DNA from: a virus
Direction: 5' to 3' (one strand)
Virus record (IMG/VR): IMGVR_UViG_3300033153_010161
Location: 1-41,055 of that record
Length of the DNA stretch: 41,055 nt
Below the pieces are notes generated by a model. The model was not told where the DNA came from. It made no database searches and worked only from the letters and a program-made list of their open reading frames with translations. Position numbers and translations under genes: made by a program. Position 1 is the first letter of the stretch; every line of letters starts with the position of its first letter. Below, piece after piece: positions 4,811 to 31,363 of this stretch.

Positions 4811-5524
4811 CTAGGCCCCGTCGGGGCCGTCAATGGTGTCGTCGTCGGTCGGTGGGTCGCCGATGGGCCCGCGATCCGTCGGCTGGTAGCCACGGCCGTC
4901 GCCGTGCCAGTCTCGTCGCGAGGTGCCCTGGCCGATCGACACGACGGGCACCAGGTCCGGCGGCCATTCCAGGCGCGTCAGGTGGTCCGCGAGTCGGGCG
5001 ACGGCGGCGGCGTCCGACGGGCCCAGGACCCTCTCGAGCTTCTCGATCAACACGATGCCGCCGGCGACCTCGACGGCCAGGCAGACCAGTTGCAGCCTGC
5101 GGGTCTCGTCATGCAGCGTGCGGGTCTCCTCGACGGCCTTGCTGACCGCCTCGATCCCGGCGCCGAGGACCTTGTACCGGGCGGCGTGCGGGTCTCGGCT
5201 CTCGGCCTTGCGTCGGGCCGCCTCGGCCCCCGACCGCGCGTGGCACAGCCGCTTGCGGACGGCCTCGAGCTTCGCCTCATGGCTCTCGGGGCACTGGACC
5301 GACCCGTCCAGCAGCCGGTCGAGGTGGGCGCTGACGGCGACGGCGGTGCGATCCAGCCGCGAGGCGACCGCCTTGATCGGCCTGCCGCGTGACAGCCAGT
5401 TGAGCATCGCGCCGACCTCCCAGGAGGCCCAGGCCCGCTTGTGCTGCTCGGGCTTCGCCGGCGGCGGGTCAGGCGGTGCGTTGGGCGGCGTCTCGGGGGG
5501 TGCGAGCGTTCCTTGCTCTTCCAT
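4811..5524 (-). CDS. Hypothetical early protein with HTH-like segment
   Basis: A 237-residue protein from ATG 5524 behind AAGGAGCCACCG. After a Pro-rich leader (residues 1-30) it has WASWEVGAMLNWLSRGRPIK followed by AVASRLDRTAVAVSAHLDRL, which resembles a Myb/sigma-like helix-turn-helix. The middle is a charged helical region with many Arg, Ala and Glu. The C-terminus is acidic (TDDDTIDGPDG). It sits between hairpin element C upstream and the 77-residue gene downstream. A longer frame reading through element C is open, but the ribosome site favours 5524. DNA binding is an inference. Confidence 0.65.
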   Translation of the reverse strand: MEEQGTLAPPETPPNAPPDPPPAKPEQHKRAWASWEVGAMLNWLSRGRPIKAVASRLDRTAVAVSAHLDRLLDGSVQCPESHEAKLEAVRKRLCHARSGAEAARRKAESRDPHAARYKVLGAGIEAVSKAVEETRTLHDETRRLQLVCLAVEVAGGIVLIEKLERVLGPSDAAAVARLADHLTRLEWPPDLVPVVSIGQGTSRRDWHGDGRGYQPTDRGPIGDPPTDDDTIDGPDGA

Positions 5525-5570
5525 CGGTGGCTCCTTCCCTGGCCCCCGGAGGGGCCGCTGGCTACACAGA

Positions 5571-5603
5571 GGTCGACGCCGGCGTCGACCGTTAAACGGT
5601 GCG
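5571..5603 (-). repeat. Hairpin element, copy C
   Basis: GCACCGTTTAACGG followed by the perfect 20-base palindrome GGTCGACGCCGGCGTCGACC. It is between the zinc-finger gene and the 237-residue gene. Confidence 0.7.
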
Positions 5604-5612
5604 GTCGCAGCT

Positions 5613-5626
5613 CTTGGCTCGTGGCT
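5613..5626 (+). repeat. Two heptamers CTTGGCT-CGTGGCT
   Basis: Two 7-base units at the stop of the zinc-finger gene, related to those at 30739-30766 and 38122-38170. Confidence 0.5.
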
Positions 5627-6207
5627 CACGCCTTCCGCGCGGCCGGCGCGTCGCCGATCGGCGCCAGGTGGCGGCGGAGCAGGTGCAGCGTGCCGTCGCG
5701 GGCGCCCAGCAGCGCCTGCTGGTCGTCGTCGCGCGTGAAGATCAGGTTGGCGTGCTCGGGCCGGACGGTCAGTCCGGCGAAGGCGGCCAGCTCGGACAGT
5801 AGCCGCCCGAGGGTGTCGACGCCGACCATGACCGGCTCCCGCTCGTCGGCGTGGAGTTCCGCCTGGGCCGCGGCCTCGTCGGCGCGGGCCTCAGACTCGC
5901 TCTTGACGCCCTTGGCCAGGCCCGCGTCCGCGGCAGCGATCTTGGCCCTGGCCTCTCTGACAGCGGCGTTCCGCTTGGCTGTCGCAGCCGCCCCGGCCGC
6001 TTTCGCAGCGGCCGGCTTCACCGTGCGCCTCGACCAGCCCCTGTTCCGCTCGCCCGGCGGCGTCGGCGGGTCGGCGTACTTCTCGGCCAGCGTGCGAGTC
6101 GCGGCGTTCGTGGAGTGCAGCTTCTGGTAGTGGGGACTGCACAGCCCGCGGCTGCGGATGGGCTTGAAGCAGTCGGGCCACTTGCAGGTCCTGTCGGTCT
6201 TCGGCAT
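5626..6207 (-). CDS. Early protein with N-terminal C4/C3H-type zinc-finger-like motif
   Basis: A 193-residue protein starting at ATG 6207 behind AAGGAGCCAGACGCC. Residues 8-31 read CKWPDCFKPIRSRGLCSPHY, a Cys-x4-Cys...Cys-x2-His arrangement that probably binds zinc. The middle is a long Ala/Arg/Glu helix, probably a coiled coil, and the C-terminal domain has MVGVDTLGRLLSELAAFAGL and LIFTRDDDQQALLGARDGTL. It lies between hairpin elements D (upstream) and C (downstream). I do not recognise a specific function; nucleic-acid binding is plausible. Confidence 0.7.
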   Translation of the reverse strand: MPKTDRTCKWPDCFKPIRSRGLCSPHYQKLHSTNAATRTLAEKYADPPTPPGERNRGWSRRTVKPAAAKAAGAAATAKRNAAVREARAKIAAADAGLAKGVKSESEARADEAAAQAELHADEREPVMVGVDTLGRLLSELAAFAGLTVRPEHANLIFTRDDDQQALLGARDGTLHLLRRHLAPIGDAPAARKA

Positions 6208-21260: not shown

Positions 21261-21278
21261 GCCGCCGCTTTCGGCGGC
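21261..21278 (-). terminator. Hairpin directly after tail protein stop
   Basis: GCCGCCG-CTTT-CGGCGGC is a perfect 7-bp stem with a 4-base loop touching the stop codon at 21280-21278. There is no U tract, so it may be an attenuator, an RNA-stability hairpin or a weak terminator. Confidence 0.4.
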
Positions 21279-22516
21279 TACGTCGGCACCTTCCGCGTGA
21301 CCGTCATCGCCCCCAGCGCCACCGTCTGCGGCCCCGCACCGGTCGCCGCCGGCGTGCCGACCAGTTGATAGACGTAGTTGAGCCGGTCGGCCGGCGGGAC
21401 GGGGCTCAGCGCGTCGGTCTCGTCCTCGGTCAGGGTCACCGTGACCGTCAGGGTCCCGTCGGCGACCGTCGCGGCCACGGTCCCGATCTCCGAGCCGGTC
21501 CCGCCGGTGGTGTCGTAGTCGCTCCGCGTCATCACGCGGAACGCCCACGTGCTGGTCGCGTCGAGGTTGGCCCAGTCGCTGGCCGTCAGCGCGAAGCTCA
21601 GCTGCCGGGCGTCGGCGGCGGCGTACTCGTCGCCTTCGATGATCGTCACCGTCCCGTCGGAGGCCACCGGCGCGCTGACCTCCACCGACACCGACCCGAT
21701 CAGGTTGGTCTTGGCCTCGATGGTCCCCTCGCCGGTGGTCGCGGCGGTGGTCCCGGTGATCCCCAGCGCCTGGCGGAGCTGGCTCTTCTCGGCGCTGGTC
21801 CAGTCGCCGACGCCCTCGGCCGTGACGTTGCTGACGATCTCCTTGACCGGCGACCCGTCGACCGCGTCTGCGTAGACCTTCCCGCTGTCGGTGTCGAAGA
21901 GGTTGGCCAGCGCCGCGGCCGTCAGCCCGCCGATGGTCCCGACGAGGTTGCCCCCCACGTTGCCCGTGACCGATCCGACCGCGCCGACCACCGACGCCAC
22001 CGAGCCGTCGACGTTGCCGCCCACGTTGCCCGTGACCGATCCGACCGCGCCGACCACCGACGCCACCGTCCCGACCACGTTGCCGCCCACGTTGCCGGTC
22101 ACCGACCCGACCGCGCCCGTCACGGACCCCACCGCGCCGCTCACGGCCGTCGGGTTGGCCGCCACGTCGTAGAGGTAGGCGGTGACGTCCACGTCGGTGT
22201 CGGCGGCGTTGGGGCTCAGCACGTAAACCACCACCTCGGCGTTGGCCGGCACGGTGAAGGGGGCCGACTGGATCGCCGCGCGGCCCTGTTCGCCGAAGGT
22301 GATCTCCTGCGCCCCGGGCTGGACGGTCTGGCCGCCGACGGTCACGCGGAACTCGAAGGCGCCGCCGGACCCGTCGAGGTCCTTCGCCCCGTCGCCCATC
22401 GCGACGTAGGCCATGCAGACGGTCGGGTTGCTCGCGTCCGGCGTGTCGGTCAGAACGGCGACCTCGCTGGTCAGGTCGCGGTCGGCGTTCTCGGTGTCGA
22501 GCTGTGTGATCGGCAT
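21278..22516 (-). CDS. Tail appendage protein with 22-residue Gly/Val repeats
   Basis: A 412-residue protein from ATG 22516. Residues 1-125 are beta-rich (FEFRVTVGGQTVQPGAQEIT, VVVYVLSPNAADTDVDVTAY). Residues about 125-195 hold repeats of the type GAVGSVTGNVGGNVVGTVAS with a 66-base DNA period, likely a collagen-like or beta-solenoid shaft. A linker (KVYADAVDGSPVKEIVSNVT) leads to a C-terminal beta domain (VTVTLTEDETDALSPVPPAD). This is the plan of a baseplate upper protein or tail fibre. It lies beside the LamG gene, which may carry the binding head. Confidence 0.65.
   Translation of the reverse strand: MPITQLDTENADRDLTSEVAVLTDTPDASNPTVCMAYVAMGDGAKDLDGSGGAFEFRVTVGGQTVQPGAQEITFGEQGRAAIQSAPFTVPANAEVVVYVLSPNAADTDVDVTAYLYDVAANPTAVSGAVGSVTGAVGSVTGNVGGNVVGTVASVVGAVGSVTGNVGGNVDGSVASVVGAVGSVTGNVGGNLVGTIGGLTAAALANLFDTDSGKVYADAVDGSPVKEIVSNVTAEGVGDWTSAEKSQLRQALGITGTTAATTGEGTIEAKTNLIGSVSVEVSAPVASDGTVTIIEGDEYAAADARQLSFALTASDWANLDATSTWAFRVMTRSDYDTTGGTGSEIGTVAATVADGTLTVTVTLTEDETDALSPVPPADRLNYVYQLVGTPAATGAGPQTVALGAMTVTRKVPT
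21935..22140 (-). repeat. 66-bp tandem repeats in tail protein
   Basis: The block starting TGCCCGTGAC at 21961 recurs at 22027 and, with changes, at 22093. Each unit codes 22 residues. Copy number changes by recombination could alter shaft length. Confidence 0.7.
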
Positions 22517-23618: not shown

Positions 23619-23918
23619 TCAGATCGTCGGATCCGGAAGCGCGTCGTCCATGCTGGTCGCCTCGGTCTTGAGACGCAGGAAATCGTCGCGCAGCAGTTTC
23701 GCCTTGGCGTCGGCGGCCGCGAGGGCCGCGTTGGCCGGGTCCGCGGCGGCCAGGGCGGCCACGTCGGAGAGCAGCCCGCCGTAGGCCGTCTGCATCGCCG
23801 TCAGGTCGGCCTTCGCGGTGACGATCTCGCTGCGTGCCCGTGACAGCCGGGTGCGATTGGTGGTGTTGCGGGAGACCACTTCGGACAGTCCGTCGCAGAT
23901 CTCGGTGTAGGTTCTCAT
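23619..23918 (-). CDS. Small coiled-coil phage protein
   Basis: A 99-residue protein with ATG 23918 overlapping the stop upstream (ATGA). It is almost wholly helical: YTEICDGLSEVVSRNTTNRT, SRARSEIVTAKADLTAMQTA and AAADAKAKLLRDDFLRLKTE. It probably forms a coiled coil. Between the sugar genes and the LamG fibre it could be a fibre connector or chaperone; no family recognised. Confidence 0.6.
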   Translation of the reverse strand: MRTYTEICDGLSEVVSRNTTNRTRLSRARSEIVTAKADLTAMQTAYGGLLSDVAALAAADPANAALAAADAKAKLLRDDFLRLKTEATSMDDALPDPTI

Positions 23919-24499
23919 GGTGTCTCCTCTGCCAAGCAGGGCTCAGGCACGATCCGGTCCACCGTCACCCCGAGCGTCTTCAGCAGTCCGGTCGTCTCGG
24001 TCCAGCGGGTCTGTTCTTTGCGCCACCGGCCGGGGTCGCGTCGTTGACGCTTGTCGGAAAACCCGTCGGCGTCGGTCGTGCCCGACCAGTCGGCCCCGTA
24101 GACGGTGATGCACGTCGCGCCGAGGTGGGCGGCCCAGGCCAGTGCGGTCATCAGGCCGAACTGGTGCCAGCGGACCGGCTTGCCCGGCACCGTCTCGCGG
24201 GCGTCGAGGTAGTCCAGGTGCCTCAGGCCGGGCCAGCCCGCCCTCAGGATGCACTGGTCCCCGTAGACGCCCGGGCTGCAGATCACCGTCGGCGTCCCCA
24301 GCAGAGGCGCGTCGTCGAAGAACGTCGCGGTGTGCGCGTCCAGCGCCACGAGGTACTCGCAGGGTCGCATCGCCGCGGCCCGGTTCACGCCGATCACCAG
24401 GTCGTAGGCGTCCGCGCCCGGGTACAGGTCGATCGACGGACCGGGGCACAGAATCGCCGCGCGGCAGCCCTTCGGATGGGTGGGTCTCCGCGGGCTCAC
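23915..24499 (-). CDS. DUF115/sialyltransferase-like glycosyltransferase
   Basis: A 194-residue protein from GTG 24499, overlapping the upstream stop (GTGA). GCRAAILCPGPSIDLYPGAD, DLVIGVNRAAAMRPCEYLVA and TVYGADWSGTTDADGF form the nucleotide-binding pattern of DUF115 or GT42-like enzymes, where the GPS motif binds the sugar nucleotide. It is the last gene of the sugar cassette. Substrate unknown. Confidence 0.6.
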   Translation of the reverse strand: MSPRRPTHPKGCRAAILCPGPSIDLYPGADAYDLVIGVNRAAAMRPCEYLVALDAHTATFFDDAPLLGTPTVICSPGVYGDQCILRAGWPGLRHLDYLDARETVPGKPVRWHQFGLMTALAWAAHLGATCITVYGADWSGTTDADGFSDKRQRRDPGRWRKEQTRWTETTGLLKTLGVTVDRIVPEPCLAEETP

Positions 24500-25029
24500 G
24501 GCAGCTCCTTCAGCCAGGCGAGGTCCTCGACGTTGCTGACGACCGTCGTCCACGGCTCCCATCGCCGGTCGTCGCAGCGGTAGCGGAAGCGCTCGAAGGC
24601 CTTCTCGTAGCTGTAGCACGCGTGCGGCTCGCTGTCGTGGACCACGACCAGCCGCGCCGTGTCGGCCAGCCGCATCAGGTCGTGCTTTCGGCGGCCGGGC
24701 GGCGCGTGGTCGACCAGCGCGACGTCCCAGTTGTGGTCGATCTCCGGCAGGCGCGCCCAGCCCGCCCCGTCGGCGTCCGGGTCCACCGCCAGGAAGAAGT
24801 GCTCGTCGGTGGCGAGCTGCCGGGAGAACCGCCCCAGCCAGTCGGCGTTCGCGCAGCACGTCAGCAGTCGCCGGCCGTCGCGGTGGCCCGGGAAGGGCGA
24901 GCACAGCTCATGCAGGATCGGCGTCGACCAGAAGCCGCAGCCCAGCTCGATCACCGGCCCGTCGGTAGCCAGCACGCAGGCCGTCAACAGCGGCAGGTGG
25001 GTCGCGAAACCGTCCGGTTTCCGCTTCAC
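24496..25029 (-). CDS. SAM-methyltransferase-like protein of the sugar cassette
   Basis: A 177-residue protein from GTG 25029 (GTGA overlap). PVIELGCGFWSTPILHELCS resembles the SAM-binding loop of class I methyltransferases, followed by HNWDVALVDHAPPGRRKHDL and TARLVVVHDSEPHACYSYEK. It could methylate a sugar or a virion protein. The acidic residue after strand 2 is not obvious, so activity is uncertain. Confidence 0.6.
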   Translation of the reverse strand: MKRKPDGFATHLPLLTACVLATDGPVIELGCGFWSTPILHELCSPFPGHRDGRRLLTCCANADWLGRFSRQLATDEHFFLAVDPDADGAGWARLPEIDHNWDVALVDHAPPGRRKHDLMRLADTARLVVVHDSEPHACYSYEKAFERFRYRCDDRRWEPWTTVVSNVEDLAWLKELP

Positions 25030-26711
25030 GGCGTCGCCTCCCGGTACTCGGCCACGTAGTCGTCGACCCACGCCATCCGGCCGGGTACCAGCTCGGCCGG
25101 CAGCGGCCGCAGGCGGGGCCAGTTCTCGTCGGTGTGTCCGGGCCGCAGGCAGTGGGCGTCGACCATGCCGGCGGCCGTCGGGTTCGCCGGCCAGCCGCCG
25201 CGGTCCACGCGGTCGGCCGGCGGGCAGCCGTGCCGCTCGATGACCTCGAGGATCACGGCGCGCTCGGCGTACCGATCGGCCAGCAGCGCCCCCACCCACG
25301 TCTCGTCGAAGCACCACGCGGCCATGCCTTCGACGGTCGGATCCAGTTCGGCGGTCAGCAGTTCGGCCGGGGGGCGGTCGCCCACGACGGCCCGCCAGGT
25401 CTCGACGGTCGCGTCGAGGTAGCAGATCGGCACCTTCGGCTCGGCGTCGAGGTGGTAGGCGTTGCCGTAGTACGAGAGCACCTCGCCCGGTTCGGGTCGT
25501 CGCGAGAAGTACTCGCCGCTCAGCGGCCAGGCGTCGGCGTCTGCGGTCAGCAGCGTCGTGTCGTCGGACAGGGGCACGCCGTAGTTGCTCGTCAGGGCGC
25601 CCTGGCAGGCCAGCAGTCGGGCGGTCTGCGCGACGGTCGCGTCGGCGTAGCCCTCGACGTGGTCCACCCAGTGGATCTCACAGCCGATCTCTCGCGCCCG
25701 GCCCAGCACGAGCGGCCGTCGCGCCGTCCACTCGGCGGCGGTGCCCACCAGCAGGGCCGTCGGCGTTCGCCCGCCGACGAGCCGCCACAGCAGCGCGGTC
25801 AGCGGGACGTAGAAGGCGTAGTCGCCCTCGAGCGTCGCGCTGAAGACCGCCCGCCGGTCGGTCGGGGGCTGCCGGTCCTGGACGGGGTGCTGGCCGGTGA
25901 AGCGCTCGACCTGTTGCACCGGCTCGCTGGTGGCGGGGCACTCGCGGTCGTAGAACTCGATGACCTCCCGGTGCTGGAAACCGGCGCCCAGGCACGGCGT
26001 CAGGGCGTCACCTTCGGCGGCCACGGCGGCGGGCAGGTCGTCGGGCGGTTCGCCGGTGATGCCGGTCAGCCGGACGGCCTCGCCGAACTCGCGGGTCGTC
26101 TTGACGTGTCGGTGTCCCATGGCGCGGTCGCGGAGGCGGTTCCAGATCCGCTGCCGGAGGATCACCTGGTCGGCCCCGTGCTGGTCGGGGGTGTGCTCGC
26201 CGACCAGGTCCCGCCAGCTCGGCCAGATCTCGCGGAGGGCATCGCAGCGGCACCCGCAGAGCCCGCCGAGGATCCCCACGCCGTGGCTCTCGTTGTCGCT
26301 GATGGTGTGGACGTCGAGACCGCTCGCGAGAAACTGCTCGGTCGCGATGCGGTCGCGCGGGGTCGGCAGTGCGTCGACGTCGCGGCAGAAGACGTACTCG
26401 GCGTCGGCGTCCCAGACCGGCCGGAGTCGCCAGAGCATCCCATCGGCCAGGCTCTCCGGCTCGCCTCCGTAGACCAGCTTGAGGTACCCCTTCTGCGGAC
26501 CCCTCGCCAGCAGCTCGACCGCCTGGGTGTAGTAGCCGTGGTAGAAGTTGCGGTCGTGGTAGAGGTGCACCTGCCAGCCGGCGTCGGCCGGGAAGATGAC
26601 CGGGTACGCGCGGGCGAGGCTCGACAGGAACTTCCGGTAGTAGTCCCACCAGCCGGGCCGGTGGTCCGGCCGCGCGAACAGGCTCAGCCCGATGACCTTC
26701 GCACCGCTCAC
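25026..26711 (-). CDS. Two-domain glycosyltransferase-like protein
   Basis: A 561-residue protein; GTG 26711 overlaps the epimerase stop (GTGA). The first half has KVIGLSLFARPDHRPGWWDY, DAEYVFCRDVDALPTPRDRI with a DxD-type motif and HTISDNESHGVGILGGLCGC. The second half has its own pattern: YAFYVPLTALLWRLVGGRTP, LTADADAWPLSGEYFSRRPE (second DxD) and YGNAYHLDAEPKVPICYLDA. So it looks like two GT-A type domains in one chain. Donor and acceptor unknown. Confidence 0.65.
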   Translation of the reverse strand: MSGAKVIGLSLFARPDHRPGWWDYYRKFLSSLARAYPVIFPADAGWQVHLYHDRNFYHGYYTQAVELLARGPQKGYLKLVYGGEPESLADGMLWRLRPVWDADAEYVFCRDVDALPTPRDRIATEQFLASGLDVHTISDNESHGVGILGGLCGCRCDALREIWPSWRDLVGEHTPDQHGADQVILRQRIWNRLRDRAMGHRHVKTTREFGEAVRLTGITGEPPDDLPAAVAAEGDALTPCLGAGFQHREVIEFYDRECPATSEPVQQVERFTGQHPVQDRQPPTDRRAVFSATLEGDYAFYVPLTALLWRLVGGRTPTALLVGTAAEWTARRPLVLGRAREIGCEIHWVDHVEGYADATVAQTARLLACQGALTSNYGVPLSDDTTLLTADADAWPLSGEYFSRRPEPGEVLSYYGNAYHLDAEPKVPICYLDATVETWRAVVGDRPPAELLTAELDPTVEGMAAWCFDETWVGALLADRYAERAVILEVIERHGCPPADRVDRGGWPANPTAAGMVDAHCLRPGHTDENWPRLRPLPAELVPGRMAWVDDYVAEYREATP

Positions 26712-27682
26712 GTCGCCGCCCCCCTTCCCGCGCCCACGCGGTTCCGCCACCAGTCCAGCGTCGCCCCGACGCACCGGGCCCCGACGGTCGCGGCGCTGTG
26801 ACCGATCAGCTCGACCAGTCGGGCGGGGTCGCCGACGAGGTTCGCCTCGTCGAAGCGTCGGCCGAGGTCCTCGTCGACGCGGATGTCGAATCGCACCCGC
26901 GCGTGGTGGGCCGCCACGCCGAGCATCTCCCCGACGGTGCGGCCCTCGCCGGTGCAGACGTTGACGGTGTGCCAGCGGCCAGCGACCAGCTCGGGGACCA
27001 GCGCGACCAGGCACGTGGCGGTCGAGCGGACGTCGGAGAAGTCGCGGATCCCCGACAGCGGCCCCGTCCGCAGGACCGGGCTGTCGAGCTCGGCCTCGAT
27101 GCGTGCGATCCCTCGGCAGAAGCGTCCCATCGCCGCCCCGGCGGGCAGTCCGGGCCCGACCTGGTTGAACAGGCGGACGGTCCCGGCGGCCAGTCGGCCG
27201 GTCAGTGCGTAGCTTCGCGTCAGCATCTCGGCGGCGGCCTTGCTGACCCCGTACGGCGACGCGGGGATCAGAGGGCAACTCTCGCGGGTGCGCCCCGGGT
27301 CGACGGCGCCCTTGCCGTAGGCGGCGGAGCTGCCGGCGACCAGGACGGCCGGCGGCGTCTCCATCGCGGCCGCGGCCTCGAGGACCGTCTGGGTGCCGAT
27401 CACGTTGGCGGTCAGCGTCGCGACGGGGATCTGCCGGCTCGGCCCGTTGACCGACTGGGCGGCGTAGTGGTGCACGACGTCGGGGCGGGTCTCGTCCATC
27501 GCGGCCCGGCAGCTCGCCGCATCGGTCACGTCGCCGATCAGCACCCGGATCCCCTCCGGCGCGTCGGCGGCTTCGGACGGCCGGACCAGGCCGGCCACCT
27601 CGTCGCCGGCGAGCCGATGCGCCTCGGCCACGTGTCGGCCGATCATCCCCGCCGCCCCGGTGATCAGTACGGTCCGGCTCAT
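26708..27682 (-). CDS. NAD(P)-dependent sugar epimerase/dehydratase (SDR family)
   Basis: A 324-residue protein from ATG 27682 (ATGA overlap). The Rossmann motif VLITGAAGMIGRHVAEAHRL, GDVTDAASC, HHYAAQSVNGPSRQIPV, VAGSSAAYGKG with the catalytic Ser region, and SPYGVSKAAAEMLTRSYALT with the YxxxK pair mark the extended SDR family. It is closest in feel to GDP-mannose dehydratase/GDP-6-deoxy-mannose reductase. It would make a modified nucleotide sugar for the neighbouring transferases. Confidence 0.85.
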   Translation of the reverse strand: MSRTVLITGAAGMIGRHVAEAHRLAGDEVAGLVRPSEAADAPEGIRVLIGDVTDAASCRAAMDETRPDVVHHYAAQSVNGPSRQIPVATLTANVIGTQTVLEAAAAMETPPAVLVAGSSAAYGKGAVDPGRTRESCPLIPASPYGVSKAAAEMLTRSYALTGRLAAGTVRLFNQVGPGLPAGAAMGRFCRGIARIEAELDSPVLRTGPLSGIRDFSDVRSTATCLVALVPELVAGRWHTVNVCTGEGRTVGEMLGVAAHHARVRFDIRVDEDLGRRFDEANLVGDPARLVELIGHSAATVGARCVGATLDWWRNRVGAGRGAAT

Positions 27683-28236
27683 CGGCAGCTCTCCGCTCGG
27701 TAGTGGTACAGCGGCAGCTCGCCCGCGTCGGCCTCGACGGCCAGCAGCGGCCGCAGCCGCTCGGAGTAGGCCCGGTCCTCTCCGTGGTCCAGCTCGGGGA
27801 AGCCCGCATCGAGCGCCAGTGCTCGGCGGACGGGGTTGAGGTGGTTGGGCGTCCGGTAGTAGACCCCGTCGCGACAGGTCCAGCCGTCGCAGGTGATCGA
27901 GTGGACGAAGAGTGCCGGCGGTCGGGTCGGCCGCGTCATCAGCCCGACGAGGCGGACGCAGTCGGGCCCGCTTTCGCAGGCGGTCAGGACGCGGCGAACG
28001 TAGTCGGCGGCGACCAGGTCATCGTCGTCGACGAACGCGACCCACCGGCCGCGGGCCTCGGCGAGCAGTGCGTTTCGCTTCGCGCCGGTCGGCTCGTGCC
28101 CGTCGTCGGTGCGGGTCAGGACCTCGACGTCGGCCCGGCCGGCGACCTGGGGGTCGAGGACGGCCCGCAGCTCCGCCAGTTGGTCAGCGCGGCGGTGCAG
28201 GTGGCAGACCAGGACGGACAGCGTCGGCTCGTTCAC
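27679..28236 (-). CDS. GT2-like glycosyltransferase
   Basis: A 185-residue protein from GTG 28236, overlapping the second micro-ORF stop (GTGA). MNEPTLSVLVCHLHRRADQL, GAKRNALLAEARGRWVAFVD followed by DDDLVAADYVRR is the GT-A family 2 pattern with an Asp-rich metal motif. A downstream DHGEDRAYSERLRPLL could hold the base. It may act on polysaccharide or virion glycans. Confidence 0.75.
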   Translation of the reverse strand: MNEPTLSVLVCHLHRRADQLAELRAVLDPQVAGRADVEVLTRTDDGHEPTGAKRNALLAEARGRWVAFVDDDDLVAADYVRRVLTACESGPDCVRLVGLMTRPTRPPALFVHSITCDGWTCRDGVYYRTPNHLNPVRRALALDAGFPELDHGEDRAYSERLRPLLAVEADAGELPLYHYRAESCR

Positions 28237-28316
28237 GTCAGCACCCCCTCGCGGATGGGACACGCCTGCCGGACGCGCCCGGCCGTCAGGTCCTCGTGTG
28301 CGGTGCGGTCGCTCAC
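28233..28316 (-). CDS. Tandem micro-ORF 2 (27 codons)
   Basis: GTG 28316 starts the peptide MSDRTAHEDLTAGRVRQACP then IREGVLT; it overlaps the previous stop and the next start by four bases each. It is a copy of micro-ORF 1. The last 11 residues equal the C-terminus of the large pyruvyltransferase fusion. Confidence 0.55.
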   Translation of the reverse strand: MSDRTAHEDLTAGRVRQACPIREGVLT

Positions 28317-28430
28317 GTCAGCACCCCCTCGCGGATGGGACACGCCTGCCGGACGCGCCCGGCCGTCAGGTCCTCGTGTGCGGTGCGGTCGCTCATGTCA
28401 GCACCCCCTCGCGGATGGGACACGCCTGCC
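28237..28430 (-). repeat. 80-bp direct repeats, 2.4 copies
   Basis: 28237-28316 and 28317-28396 are identical except for one base (C/T at the last position, turning GTG into ATG), and 28397-28430 repeats the first 34 bases. It contains the 3' end of the upstream gene plus a micro-ORF. The near identity implies recent duplication. Confidence 0.9.
28313..28396 (-). CDS. Tandem micro-ORF 1 (27 codons)
   Basis: ATG 28396 overlaps the stop of the glycosyl/pyruvyltransferase gene (ATGA) and its own TGA overlaps the next GTG. The peptide is MSDRTAHEDLTAGRVRQACP then IREGVLT. Because each ORF is 84 bases and overlaps by four, the DNA period is exactly 80 bases. Confidence 0.55.
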   Translation of the reverse strand: MSDRTAHEDLTAGRVRQACPIREGVLT

Positions 28431-29988
28431 AAAGGCCTTCGGCGAGCGCCGCGATCGCGGCGGGCTTCGCCTCGTTGCGGTAGCGGTCGACCAGTTCGGC
28501 GGCCGACTCGAACGGCAGGTCGCGTCGCCGGCAGTCGATCGGCCCGGACGCGTCGCGACGACGGCCAACTGCCAAGAGGTGGTCGCGGAACTTCGTGCCG
28601 TCGCCGCCGACGGCGGCCGACAGGCTCACCCAGGCGTTGGGCACGTCGTAGGCGTCGGCGACGACGAGCCCGTGCAGGGAGCTCGACAGCAGGAGATCGC
28701 AGGCGGTCACCTCGGCCACAAACGCCTCGACGGTGGTCAGCGGGTCGATCAGGTGGACGCGGTCGCAGTGGCCGTACCGCCAGGCGGCCAGGCGGGCGTC
28801 CGCGTAGTGCGGCACCAGGCCGATGCGGCCGGGGTGTCGCTGGGCGGCGCGCGGGAGCCATCGCGGCAGCAGCAGTCCCGGGTCGCCGTAGCGCTCGGGG
28901 CAGCGGCTCGGCGGCACGCCGTCGCACAGCGCGATCACCCGGCTCAGCGGTCCGCGGACGGCCCGGATGTCGCAGCCGGCGTGGACGTGGTCGGTGTGGT
29001 TGGCCAGCCCCGCGCCCCAGACCACGTCGCCCGGCTGGGCCCAGTTCAGCAGGCTCCCGGCGCCGACGAGTTTCCGGACGTCGCCGTCGTTGGGGTCTAC
29101 CCAGGTCGGTCGTCGGCCCGTGATCTGGTGGACCAGCCAGCCGGTCAGCCGGTCGCCGACGTTCTCGCTCTGGCACCAGGTCGCCGGAATCCGGTCCGGC
29201 TCGGTCGTATCACGTGCCCACCGGTAGCAGCCGGCGTCGCGGAGTGCCGCCGGCAGGTGCCGGCGGCCGTTACAGGGGGCCTCGCCGATCCGCTGCCAGT
29301 CGGCGCCCAGGTGGGCGACGGCCGCGGCGGTCCGGCCGGTCAGCAGGTCCGCCTCCGGGTCGGTGCTCTCGAAGCCCTCGGGCCAGGACACCTGGTGCGT
29401 CGCCCCCCCGAACCGCCGCGCCAGGTAGCTCAGCACGACGTCGTCGACGTGTCCGAGCCCGTCGGCCGTCAGCTCGTCCCGGGCCGTCTCGTGGGCCTCG
29501 GCGTCCGGTTCGGCCATGCGTCGCAGCACCGCCGCGCCGATCGCCATGCACCAGCCCCCGGCCCATCCCCACACGCCGAGTTTCTGCGTCGCCACCGGCG
29601 GCTCTTGGAAGCGGCCGACCAGTGCGTCCGCCCCGGCGCCCGCCAGCGTCGCGGTGATGCGTCGGCCGGCCGCGGGCAGCAGGACGGTGTCGCTGTCGAC
29701 GCGGAGCATCCAGTCGGCGCCGCTCTCGGCGGTCGCGGCGGCCATGGCCGCCAGCTCGACCAGCGTCCCGTTGTAGGCTCGCGGGTCCAGTTCCGCCGGC
29801 AGCTTCACCACGCGCGCCCCCATCGCCTCGAGCGTCGCGATCTGCTCGGCGGTCAGCGGTTGGGCCCCCTCGCTGATCACCACGCGCGGCAGTAACCTCG
29901 GTTCGCCGAGCTGCCGCTGGCTGCGGACGCTCATCACGAGCAGGTCGAAGTCTCTCGGGCAGCCGACGGTGACCGGCAGGATCTTCAT
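28393..29988 (-). CDS. Glycosyltransferase fused to polysaccharide pyruvyl transferase
   Basis: A 531-residue protein from ATG 29988 (ATGA overlap). Residues 1-260: glycosyltransferase-like, with MKILPVTVGCPRDFDLLVMS, ADWMLRVDSDTVLLPAAGRR (DSD motif) and LGVWGWAGGWCMAIG. Residues about 270-520: a pyruvyl transferase domain, with SENVGDRLTGWLVHQITGRR, GDVVWGAGLANHTDHVHAG, AVRGPLSRVIALCDGVPPSR and CDLLLSSSLHGLVVADAYDV. The second domain ketalises a sugar with pyruvate. A fusion of the two is unusual and may give a charged surface glycan. Confidence 0.75.
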   Translation of the reverse strand: MKILPVTVGCPRDFDLLVMSVRSQRQLGEPRLLPRVVISEGAQPLTAEQIATLEAMGARVVKLPAELDPRAYNGTLVELAAMAAATAESGADWMLRVDSDTVLLPAAGRRITATLAGAGADALVGRFQEPPVATQKLGVWGWAGGWCMAIGAAVLRRMAEPDAEAHETARDELTADGLGHVDDVVLSYLARRFGGATHQVSWPEGFESTDPEADLLTGRTAAAVAHLGADWQRIGEAPCNGRRHLPAALRDAGCYRWARDTTEPDRIPATWCQSENVGDRLTGWLVHQITGRRPTWVDPNDGDVRKLVGAGSLLNWAQPGDVVWGAGLANHTDHVHAGCDIRAVRGPLSRVIALCDGVPPSRCPERYGDPGLLLPRWLPRAAQRHPGRIGLVPHYADARLAAWRYGHCDRVHLIDPLTTVEAFVAEVTACDLLLSSSLHGLVVADAYDVPNAWVSLSAAVGGDGTKFRDHLLAVGRRRDASGPIDCRRRDLPFESAAELVDRYRNEAKPAAIAALAEGLWQACPIREGVLT

Positions 29989-30704
29989 CGCCGCACCGCC
30001 TCGGCCTCGGCCCTCAGCAGTCCGGAGCCCGGGAAACCCGCCGCCCGTCGCTCGTTGAACAGCTGCCGGTCCGCGCCCCAGTGGAGCTGGTTGCGCCTCT
30101 GGTAGTCGGTCTGCGGCCCGCAGCCCCGGCGGGTCCAGTGTTCGTGGCGTTGCGTCAGGTCCGGCCGCTGCCGGAGCAGCCCGAGCCGCTCGGCGACGAG
30201 CTGCAGCTCCTCGTCCATGTAGTAGTGGTGGTAGCCGGCGGGCAGGGGTCCGTGGCCGTTGTAGGCCCGGCCGACCCATCCGCGCCCCAGCCAGGGCGAC
30301 CCGCAGATCCGCGCGGCGGCCGGGACGCCGTCCCGGTCGATACCCATCGGGTCGCCGGTGGGCTGCATCACCCCGAGCAGCTCGGGGCCGAAGTGCGTGA
30401 GAAACTCCTCGGCGATCTCGTCGGCGGCGTGGTCCGGGTCCGGCAGCATGTCGTCGCCACCGGTCACGACGATCGTCGCGTCGTGGTCAACCGTCAGGTC
30501 GAGGGCCAGGTAATTCACCGCCGCCGGCCAGCCGGGGTAGCGCTGGACGTAGACGCTCAGGTCGGCCGCGGCAATCTTGCGGACCCTCGGGCAGCTCTCC
30601 GCGTCCAGCAGCACGGCCGTCCGGTAGCCCATCTCTCGCCACCGCTTCAGGCAGCGGGCCGCCCGCGGCGGGTTGGCCGTCGGGATGGCGTACCACACGC
30701 TCAC
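29985..30704 (-). CDS. Glycosyltransferase-like protein
   Basis: A 239-residue protein from ATG 30704. It opens MSVWYAIPTANPPRAARCLK and has DHDATIVVTGGDDMLPDPDH, a GT-A type metal site, then NGHGPLPAGYHHYYMDEELQ. The N-terminal pattern is of a GT2-like enzyme. It is part of the run of overlapping sugar genes. Confidence 0.65.
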   Translation of the reverse strand: MSVWYAIPTANPPRAARCLKRWREMGYRTAVLLDAESCPRVRKIAAADLSVYVQRYPGWPAAVNYLALDLTVDHDATIVVTGGDDMLPDPDHAADEIAEEFLTHFGPELLGVMQPTGDPMGIDRDGVPAAARICGSPWLGRGWVGRAYNGHGPLPAGYHHYYMDEELQLVAERLGLLRQRPDLTQRHEHWTRRGCGPQTDYQRRNQLHWGADRQLFNERRAAGFPGSGLLRAEAEAVRR

Positions 30705-31363
30705 GCGGGTGCCTCCACCGGCCAGGCCTCTGCGCCCTCATGGCTCATGGCTCGTGCCTCGTGCCTGCTCGCCGCCTCCGCGGCGAGGGTCTTGCGCGAC
30801 TGCTGGAAGTGCTCGATGACCGGCCGGATCCCCGGCGTCAGCTTCCGCTGCAGGTCGTGGATGCAGCACAGCTCCGCCGGCAGCTCGGCGATCGTCGGCG
30901 ACGGCCGGTCGTAGCGGTCCAGGTCGATCGCCGCGGCGAGCGCCTTCTGGTCCCACCGGTCGGGGTGTTCGGCCGCACACTGCCACCACCGACCCAGCAG
31001 CCACCCGGCCGACTCGGTCGCGGCCAGGTAGACCGTCCCCGACAGCACCTCGCGGCCGCGGAAGCGGTGTACCGCCGCGTCGCACTCGCCGAGGGCCGCC
31101 AGGTGAGGACGCGGGTCGGCGTGGACGATCGCGTCGGCGTCGACCCACAGCAGCGGCCGGCCCGGATAGCGAGCGCGCAGCGCCTGGAGGAAGCCGGGCT
31201 TCGCCAGGCAGTTCGCCTGCCAGTTTCCCCGGTCCGGCAGGTAGGCCACGACGTACCGGACGCCGACGGCGGACAGCGACGCCCGCAGCCGATCGGCCAG
31301 GGGCGCGTACGCGCCCCCCGTGTGAAAACTGACGACCAGGAGGTTCTCCGGCGCGTCGGTCAT
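30701..31363 (-). CDS. Nucleotide-sugar transferase-like protein
   Basis: A 220-residue protein from ATG 31363 (ATGA overlap with the lipoprotein). LLVVSFHTGGAYAPLADRLR, RPLLWVDADAIVHADPRPHL with a DxD motif and VHRFRGREVLSGTVYLAATE suit a GT-A nucleotide-diphospho-sugar transferase. The C-terminal tail SRHEARAMSHEGAEAW is coded by heptamer repeats, so the repeat has grown into the gene's end. Confidence 0.7.
   Translation of the reverse strand: MTDAPENLLVVSFHTGGAYAPLADRLRASLSAVGVRYVVAYLPDRGNWQANCLAKPGFLQALRARYPGRPLLWVDADAIVHADPRPHLAALGECDAAVHRFRGREVLSGTVYLAATESAGWLLGRWWQCAAEHPDRWDQKALAAAIDLDRYDRPSPTIAELPAELCCIHDLQRKLTPGIRPVIEHFQQSRKTLAAEAASRHEARAMSHEGAEAWPVEAPA
30739..30766 (+). repeat. Four tandem heptamers CATGGCT/CGTGCCT
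   Basis: CATGGCT-CATGGCT-CGTGCCT-CGTGCCT, four exact 7-base units inside the 3' end of the transferase gene. The same unit types recur at 38122-38170 and 5613-5626. Confidence 0.8.

Follow-up and report, generated by a model that had tools for sequence, protein, structure and literature searches.

Tandem micro-ORFs that probably arose by duplication of a gene junction in the sugar operon of an uncultivated phage

The DNA analyzed here, referred to as the window, is the whole 41,055-base stretch of a complete IMG/VR virus record (71.6% G+C) from an uncultivated phage. Terminase, portal, head, and tail proteins encoded in the window identify it as a tailed phage. A sugar operon runs from 30704 down to 23918, and 10 of its 10 junctions are 4-nt overlaps. 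Within this operon, a tandem array whose copies match at 98% (Tandem Repeats Finder) lies on the minus strand between a gene with a polysaccharide pyruvyltransferase domain and a GT2 glycosyltransferase gene, and it leaves the chain of overlapping genes unbroken. In the direction of transcription, the array consists of a 42-bp segment, A, alternating with a 38-bp segment, B, in the order A1-B1-A2-B2-A3 (Table 1). A search for a promoter at the joint found none. The array is known from one genome, which comes from a metagenome-derived public collection.

Table 1. Features of the array and of its flanking genes (window coordinates)
Feature	Coordinates	Strand	Remarks
Upstream gene, polysaccharide pyruvyltransferase domain	28393..29988	-	PF04230; 531 aa from ATG at 29988
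Whole array, A1-B1-A2-B2-A3	28229..28430	-	Period 80, 2.5 copies
A1	28389..28430	-	Native 3' end of pyruvyltransferase gene, as judged from homologues (QACPIREGVLT, Shine-Dalgarno, ATGA overlap)
m1 Shine-Dalgarno	28402..28410	-	GAGGGGGTG; within pyruvyltransferase coding sequence
Micro-ORF m1	28313..28396	-	27 aa, ATG start; ATGA overlaps pyruvyltransferase stop
B1	28351..28388	-	38-bp head segment, coding-like in micro-ORF frame
A2	28309..28350	-	A copy; m1 end and m2 start
m2 Shine-Dalgarno	28322..28330	-	Within m1
Micro-ORF m2	28233..28316	-	27 aa, GTG start; GTGA overlaps m1 stop
B2	28271..28308	-	B1 copy, identical
A3	28229..28270	-	A copy; m2 end and GT2 start
GT2 Shine-Dalgarno	28242..28250	-	Within m2
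GT2 glycosyltransferase	27679..28236	-	PF00535, phrog_14775; GTG start at 28236 overlapping m2 stop

The initial annotation had described tandem 80-bp units that each hold a complete 84-base ORF, and the repeat analysis, the ORF coordinates, and the 4-nt overlaps bear this out. The two micro-ORFs, m1 and m2, are 84 nt each and both encode MSDRTAHEDLTAGRVRQACPIREGVLT. Three joints of 4 nt connect them to each other and to their neighbors (ATGA for pyruvyltransferase/m1, GTGA for m1/m2 and for m2/GT2), and at each of these NTGA overlaps the Shine-Dalgarno sequence lies inside the upstream coding sequence. The peptide ends in QACPIREGVLT, the same 11 residues that end the upstream protein, as had also been claimed. 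The report of a single mismatch, changing ATG to GTG, holds within the ORFs, where the first base of the start codon is the only difference (28316 C vs 28396 T, + strand); a second difference between copies (28232 T vs 28312 C) falls in the second codon of GT2. The longest exact repeat in the array is 83 bp, and an adjacent exact repeat of this length certainly far exceeds chance. Because the copies differ at so few bases, the duplication event appears to be recent.

A complete, correctly phased ORF in every unit is less telling than it may seem. Whenever a stop/start overlap is repeated, a period of 2 modulo 3 combined with no stop in 25 codons has a chance of about 0.21 at this composition. 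Coding-phase composition is stronger evidence that the micro-ORF frame is, or was, coding. We scored frames with a codon model trained on eleven window genes, among them the upstream gene, which slightly favors A and not B. Scores for the micro-ORF were +6.9 in its own frame and -19 and -16 in the two remaining forward frames; for B by itself they were +5.1, with -6 and -9 out of frame. Segments of real genes, cut to micro-ORF length, had median scores of +11.9 in frame and about -18 when read out of frame. A long ORF in the m1 frame (29176-28313) was set aside as GC-rich read-through in the wrong frame, since its codon scores are off-frame before the micro-ORF.

The signals for translation initiation in the array are strong. 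Each A segment carries GAGGGGGTG, with seven bases (TGCTGAC) between the AGGGGG core and the start codon. A simple duplex calculation, with an anti-Shine-Dalgarno sequence like that of E. coli assumed, gave -14.6 kcal/mol for pairing of GAGGGGGTG with the 16S 3' end, the best value among 22 gene starts examined (next -12.4). The same energy was reached by 9 of the 1003 NTG triplets on the strand, three of which are inside the array. Accessibility of the array Shine-Dalgarno sequences fell inside the range of other genes. RNA of the array region folded no better than shuffles (z +1.1), and an RNA switch was set aside on this ground.

Comparison with homologues shows that segment A belongs to the pyruvyltransferase gene itself, as its native 3' end. 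The upstream protein matches PF04230 above the gathering score and has a conserved C-terminal CPF-like motif: it ends ...EGLWQACPIREGVLT, in which LWQACPI corresponds to the conserved C-terminal motif of the family. The Eleftheria terrae homologue ends ...ALWRSCPLLDHER, viral homologues end ...LLNACPFEY, ...LIKACPFKV, ...LWEACPFK, and ...LLAACPIRK, and the end ALWRSCPL is also seen among homologues. Among the 52 viral homologues with a complete 3' end, an LxxxCPF-like motif occurs in the last 60 residues of 36, mostly no more than 10 residues from the stop, and the narrower motif [AS]CP[FILW] occurs in 15. Since homologues share this motif, A is native to the pyruvyltransferase gene, from which the 11-residue tails of the micro-ORFs are copied. 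A 4-nt overlap with a start codon ends 22 viral homologues (judged without gene calls there). These viral homologues were obtained with an alignment query; used as a single-sequence query, the pyruvyltransferase gave zero matches in viral contigs. The whole protein gave no relative of solved structure with phmmer, and its first ~280 residues, which match no Pfam family, could contribute a second catalytic domain to a fusion protein. In one virus contig (L072), a pyruvyltransferase domain is fused directly to GT2 (SCPFKPKIKLSILICTLNDR), so adjacency of the two also exists without micro-ORFs. This fusion, at about 4962-6206 in a contig of 27% G+C, is in frame and has almost no linker.

The surrounding cassette varies among relatives. 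Head-protein relatives in viral contigs have 24-48% identity over most or part of the protein; in the nearest, L024, the 90 C-terminal residues are 69% identical. At the corresponding position between head and tail genes, the sets of sugar genes in L024 and L030 differ, so the cassette is variable. When window 23619-31333 was compared with L024 268-7082 and L030 2945-8910, glycosyltransferase and methyltransferase sets differed, and the variable part was flanked by the genes at 30701-31333 (47% in L030) and 23915-24475 (33%). A virus contig of 54% G+C (L066, 9-5502) has relatives of four cassette genes in one run (pyruvyltransferase, the 25026-26711 gene, the 24496-25029 gene, and epimerase), which suggests that parts of the cassette travel together. 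Elsewhere in the window, a 66-bp in-frame tandem repeat (21939-22139; three copies, 87% match) lies inside the gene at 21278-22516, which weakly matches a tape-measure family.

Copies of the unit were sought in several collections. Outside the array, neither A nor B occurs in the window, the relatives, phage records, or viral contigs, in searches that may omit records very near the window and in which the nearest relative reached is distant. The array, the peptide, and B were absent from the relatives found (one of these searches had no positive control). The initial annotation had looked to relatives for conservation of the unit; none of those reached carries it, which says little when the nearest is as distant as L024. 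The micro-peptide had no match in Pfam and no homologue in phages, relatives, or viral contigs. A scan of genome contigs with the A peptide pattern gave one match in total, in a Methylobacter MAG, where nine residues (QACPIREGV) are followed by unrelated sequence, and this was taken as chance. No source for B was found among viral contigs, relatives, or the other operon junctions; its best match in the window covers 28 of 42 positions. The array was also considered as a copy of another operon junction, for which no alignment was clearly above shuffles. Phages found with GT2 alone, likewise set aside, were mostly of low G+C and had unrelated sequence upstream of GT2. In 990 kb of fetched sequence, 1 of 3257 consecutive short-ORF pairs with a 4-nt overlap was a pair of like sequence, namely m1 and m2.

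We consider it probable that the array arose when a gene junction was duplicated locally and in tandem, in the recent past, with translational coupling kept at any copy number. The unit combines the 42-bp native end of the pyruvyltransferase gene with 38 bp of coding-like head sequence, and its duplication would have placed two short cistrons between pyruvyltransferase and GT2. Each of these begins on the upstream stop, holds the next Shine-Dalgarno in its last codons, and ends on the next start. As every unit is a complete cistron, the gain or loss of a unit would leave both flanking proteins intact. The anatomy of a coupling relay, which the initial annotation had proposed in suggesting a coupling device, is well supported by the 4-nt overlaps, by a Shine-Dalgarno that is the strongest examined, and by the coding-phase composition. 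Overlapping gene pairs tested for coupling by Huber et al. (PMC6728339) were coupled in 13 of 14 cases, and short upstream ORFs have been proposed to serve solely for ribosome delivery (PMC12548453).

From these features we infer that the micro-ORFs are translated and that ribosomes are probably handed over along them. A ribosome that ends the pyruvyltransferase would meet an overlapping start with a strong Shine-Dalgarno, translate 27 residues, do so again, and then reach GT2. The hand-over could rely on termination-reinitiation, or new 30S subunits could load at every Shine-Dalgarno once it is unwound. Tuning of GT2 by the array is possible, and the balance between lossy hand-over and recruitment of new ribosomes at each Shine-Dalgarno would decide whether the array lowers GT2. 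The 27-residue peptide itself is most likely a by-product without function, though the coding-like composition of B could reflect selection on it.

The order of events that we propose has to account for B. Against a simple duplication of a gene end with the head of the next gene, GT2, the present next gene, does not have B at its start, and such a duplication is unproven because no source of B was found. A single duplication is not enough to turn A alone into A-B-A; either something must have been inserted beforehand or a gene with B at its start must have been lost. By one route, a gene beginning with B would once have followed A, and a tandem duplication of A and B across the junction would have joined the head of this gene to the pyruvyltransferase tail, giving a micro-ORF, with a second duplication giving two. 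The head of the lost gene would read MSDRTAHEDLTAGRVR, and since GT2 directly follows A3, GT2 would later have taken the place of the B-headed gene, with the exchange at the start codon. By the other route, the order pyruvyltransferase-A-GT2 would be ancestral, and B with a copy of A would have been inserted. Either route would fit the data.

Known systems offer several points of comparison. Mycobacterial MIRUs seem to be mobile, insert at start codons, and couple at -4 nt (PMC12548453), and the MIRU units of senX3-regX3 are 77 bp and 53 bp (PMC4213456). Like these, the array consists of tandem units, comparable in length and likewise 2 modulo 3 in period, at a start codon between two co-directed operon genes, and each of its units is a small ORF that overlaps its neighbors by 4 nt and can be inserted without harm to the frame. 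MIRUs, however, are found in many mycobacteria, whereas the array is one locus: no dispersed copy was found in the 41-kb record, the relatives, or the viral contigs. Half of the array unit, moreover, is the 3' end of the upstream gene, which points to a local origin. Compared by description, the array would thus work like a MIRU; it is not classed as one because no dispersed family was found and A derives from the neighboring gene. The mycobacterial MIRU is its closest natural relative in architecture. The closest engineered analogue is the leader of bicistronic designs (BCD; PMC5995908), where a short leader cistron likewise holds the Shine-Dalgarno of the next gene and has an overlapping or adjacent start. 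BCD leaders are engineered, usually as one leader after a promoter, whereas the array would be two serial leaders placed inside an operon by duplication. Ordinary coupling at 4-nt overlaps by termination-reinitiation (PMC6728339) uses the same overlap that is seen at all ten operon junctions, but the array adds two near-identical micro-cistrons, for which the ~1 Mb surveyed held no second case.

Other explanations of the array were weighed against duplication of the junction. It could be a selected relay for tuning expression, in which the number of units sets GT2 relative to pyruvyltransferase, lower through lossy hand-over or higher through extra loading sites. Every unit has a strong Shine-Dalgarno, the frame is intact whatever the copy number, the adjacent 83-bp direct repeat would be expected to gain or lose units readily, and the sole difference between the micro-ORFs leaves a start codon in place and does not alter the Thr of the upstream frame. 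All of these features follow from junction duplication, however, and the relay is carried by one genome and by none of the relatives searched; we regard this explanation as rather unlikely. Unlikely, too, is that the phage evolved from the end of a resident gene a MIRU-like relay of adjustable copy number, whose unit count would tune one glycosyltransferase in a variable sugar-modification operon. If the array instead encoded a functional small protein, duplicated for dosage, the coding-phase composition, the strong translation signals, and the identity of both peptides save for the start codon would be expected, but 11 of the 27 residues are copied from the C-terminus of the upstream protein and the homologue and Pfam searches described above were negative, which leaves this a highly improbable reading.

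The recombination joint for swapping sugar genes suggested by the initial annotation fared poorly. Exchange at a shared A, with the extra copies as its traces, would fit a head-tail cassette that differs among relatives, and A3 leads into GT2 when A1 and A2 lead into B, so the sequence after A changed at least one time or B was inserted. Yet A is found nowhere else in the sequences searched and is the upstream gene's own end, and the other operon junctions resemble the array no more than shuffles do. We consider such a joint very unlikely. Insertion of a mobile MIRU-type element at the GT2 start codon would account for the tandem small ORFs coupled by 4 nt and for a unit length that, like 77 and 53 bp, is 2 modulo 3; the want of another copy in the genome and relatives and the derivation of A from the adjoining gene make it the least probable explanation. 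There is also a slight chance that the assembly added units, given a single metagenome-derived virus record and no second genome with the array. The single-base differences at 28232/28312 and 28316/28396 mark the copies, though, and with no exact repeat above 83 bp, k-mers longer than 83 and reads of 100-150 bp would suffice to place the units. Assemblers typically collapse repeats and seldom expand them.

Taken as a duplicated junction, the array looks less like a system of a new kind than like a local duplication of recent date. It shows how a coupled micro-cistron resembling a MIRU could come from duplication of a plain stop/start junction without a mobile element. Duplicating a 4-nt-overlap junction is automatically safe for the operon as long as the period is 2 modulo 3 and the frame stays open, and because of this, similar arrays could seed new small ORFs or the tuning of expression in dense phage operons. 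This is a modest point on the origins of small ORFs and repeats, and one that is easily testable.
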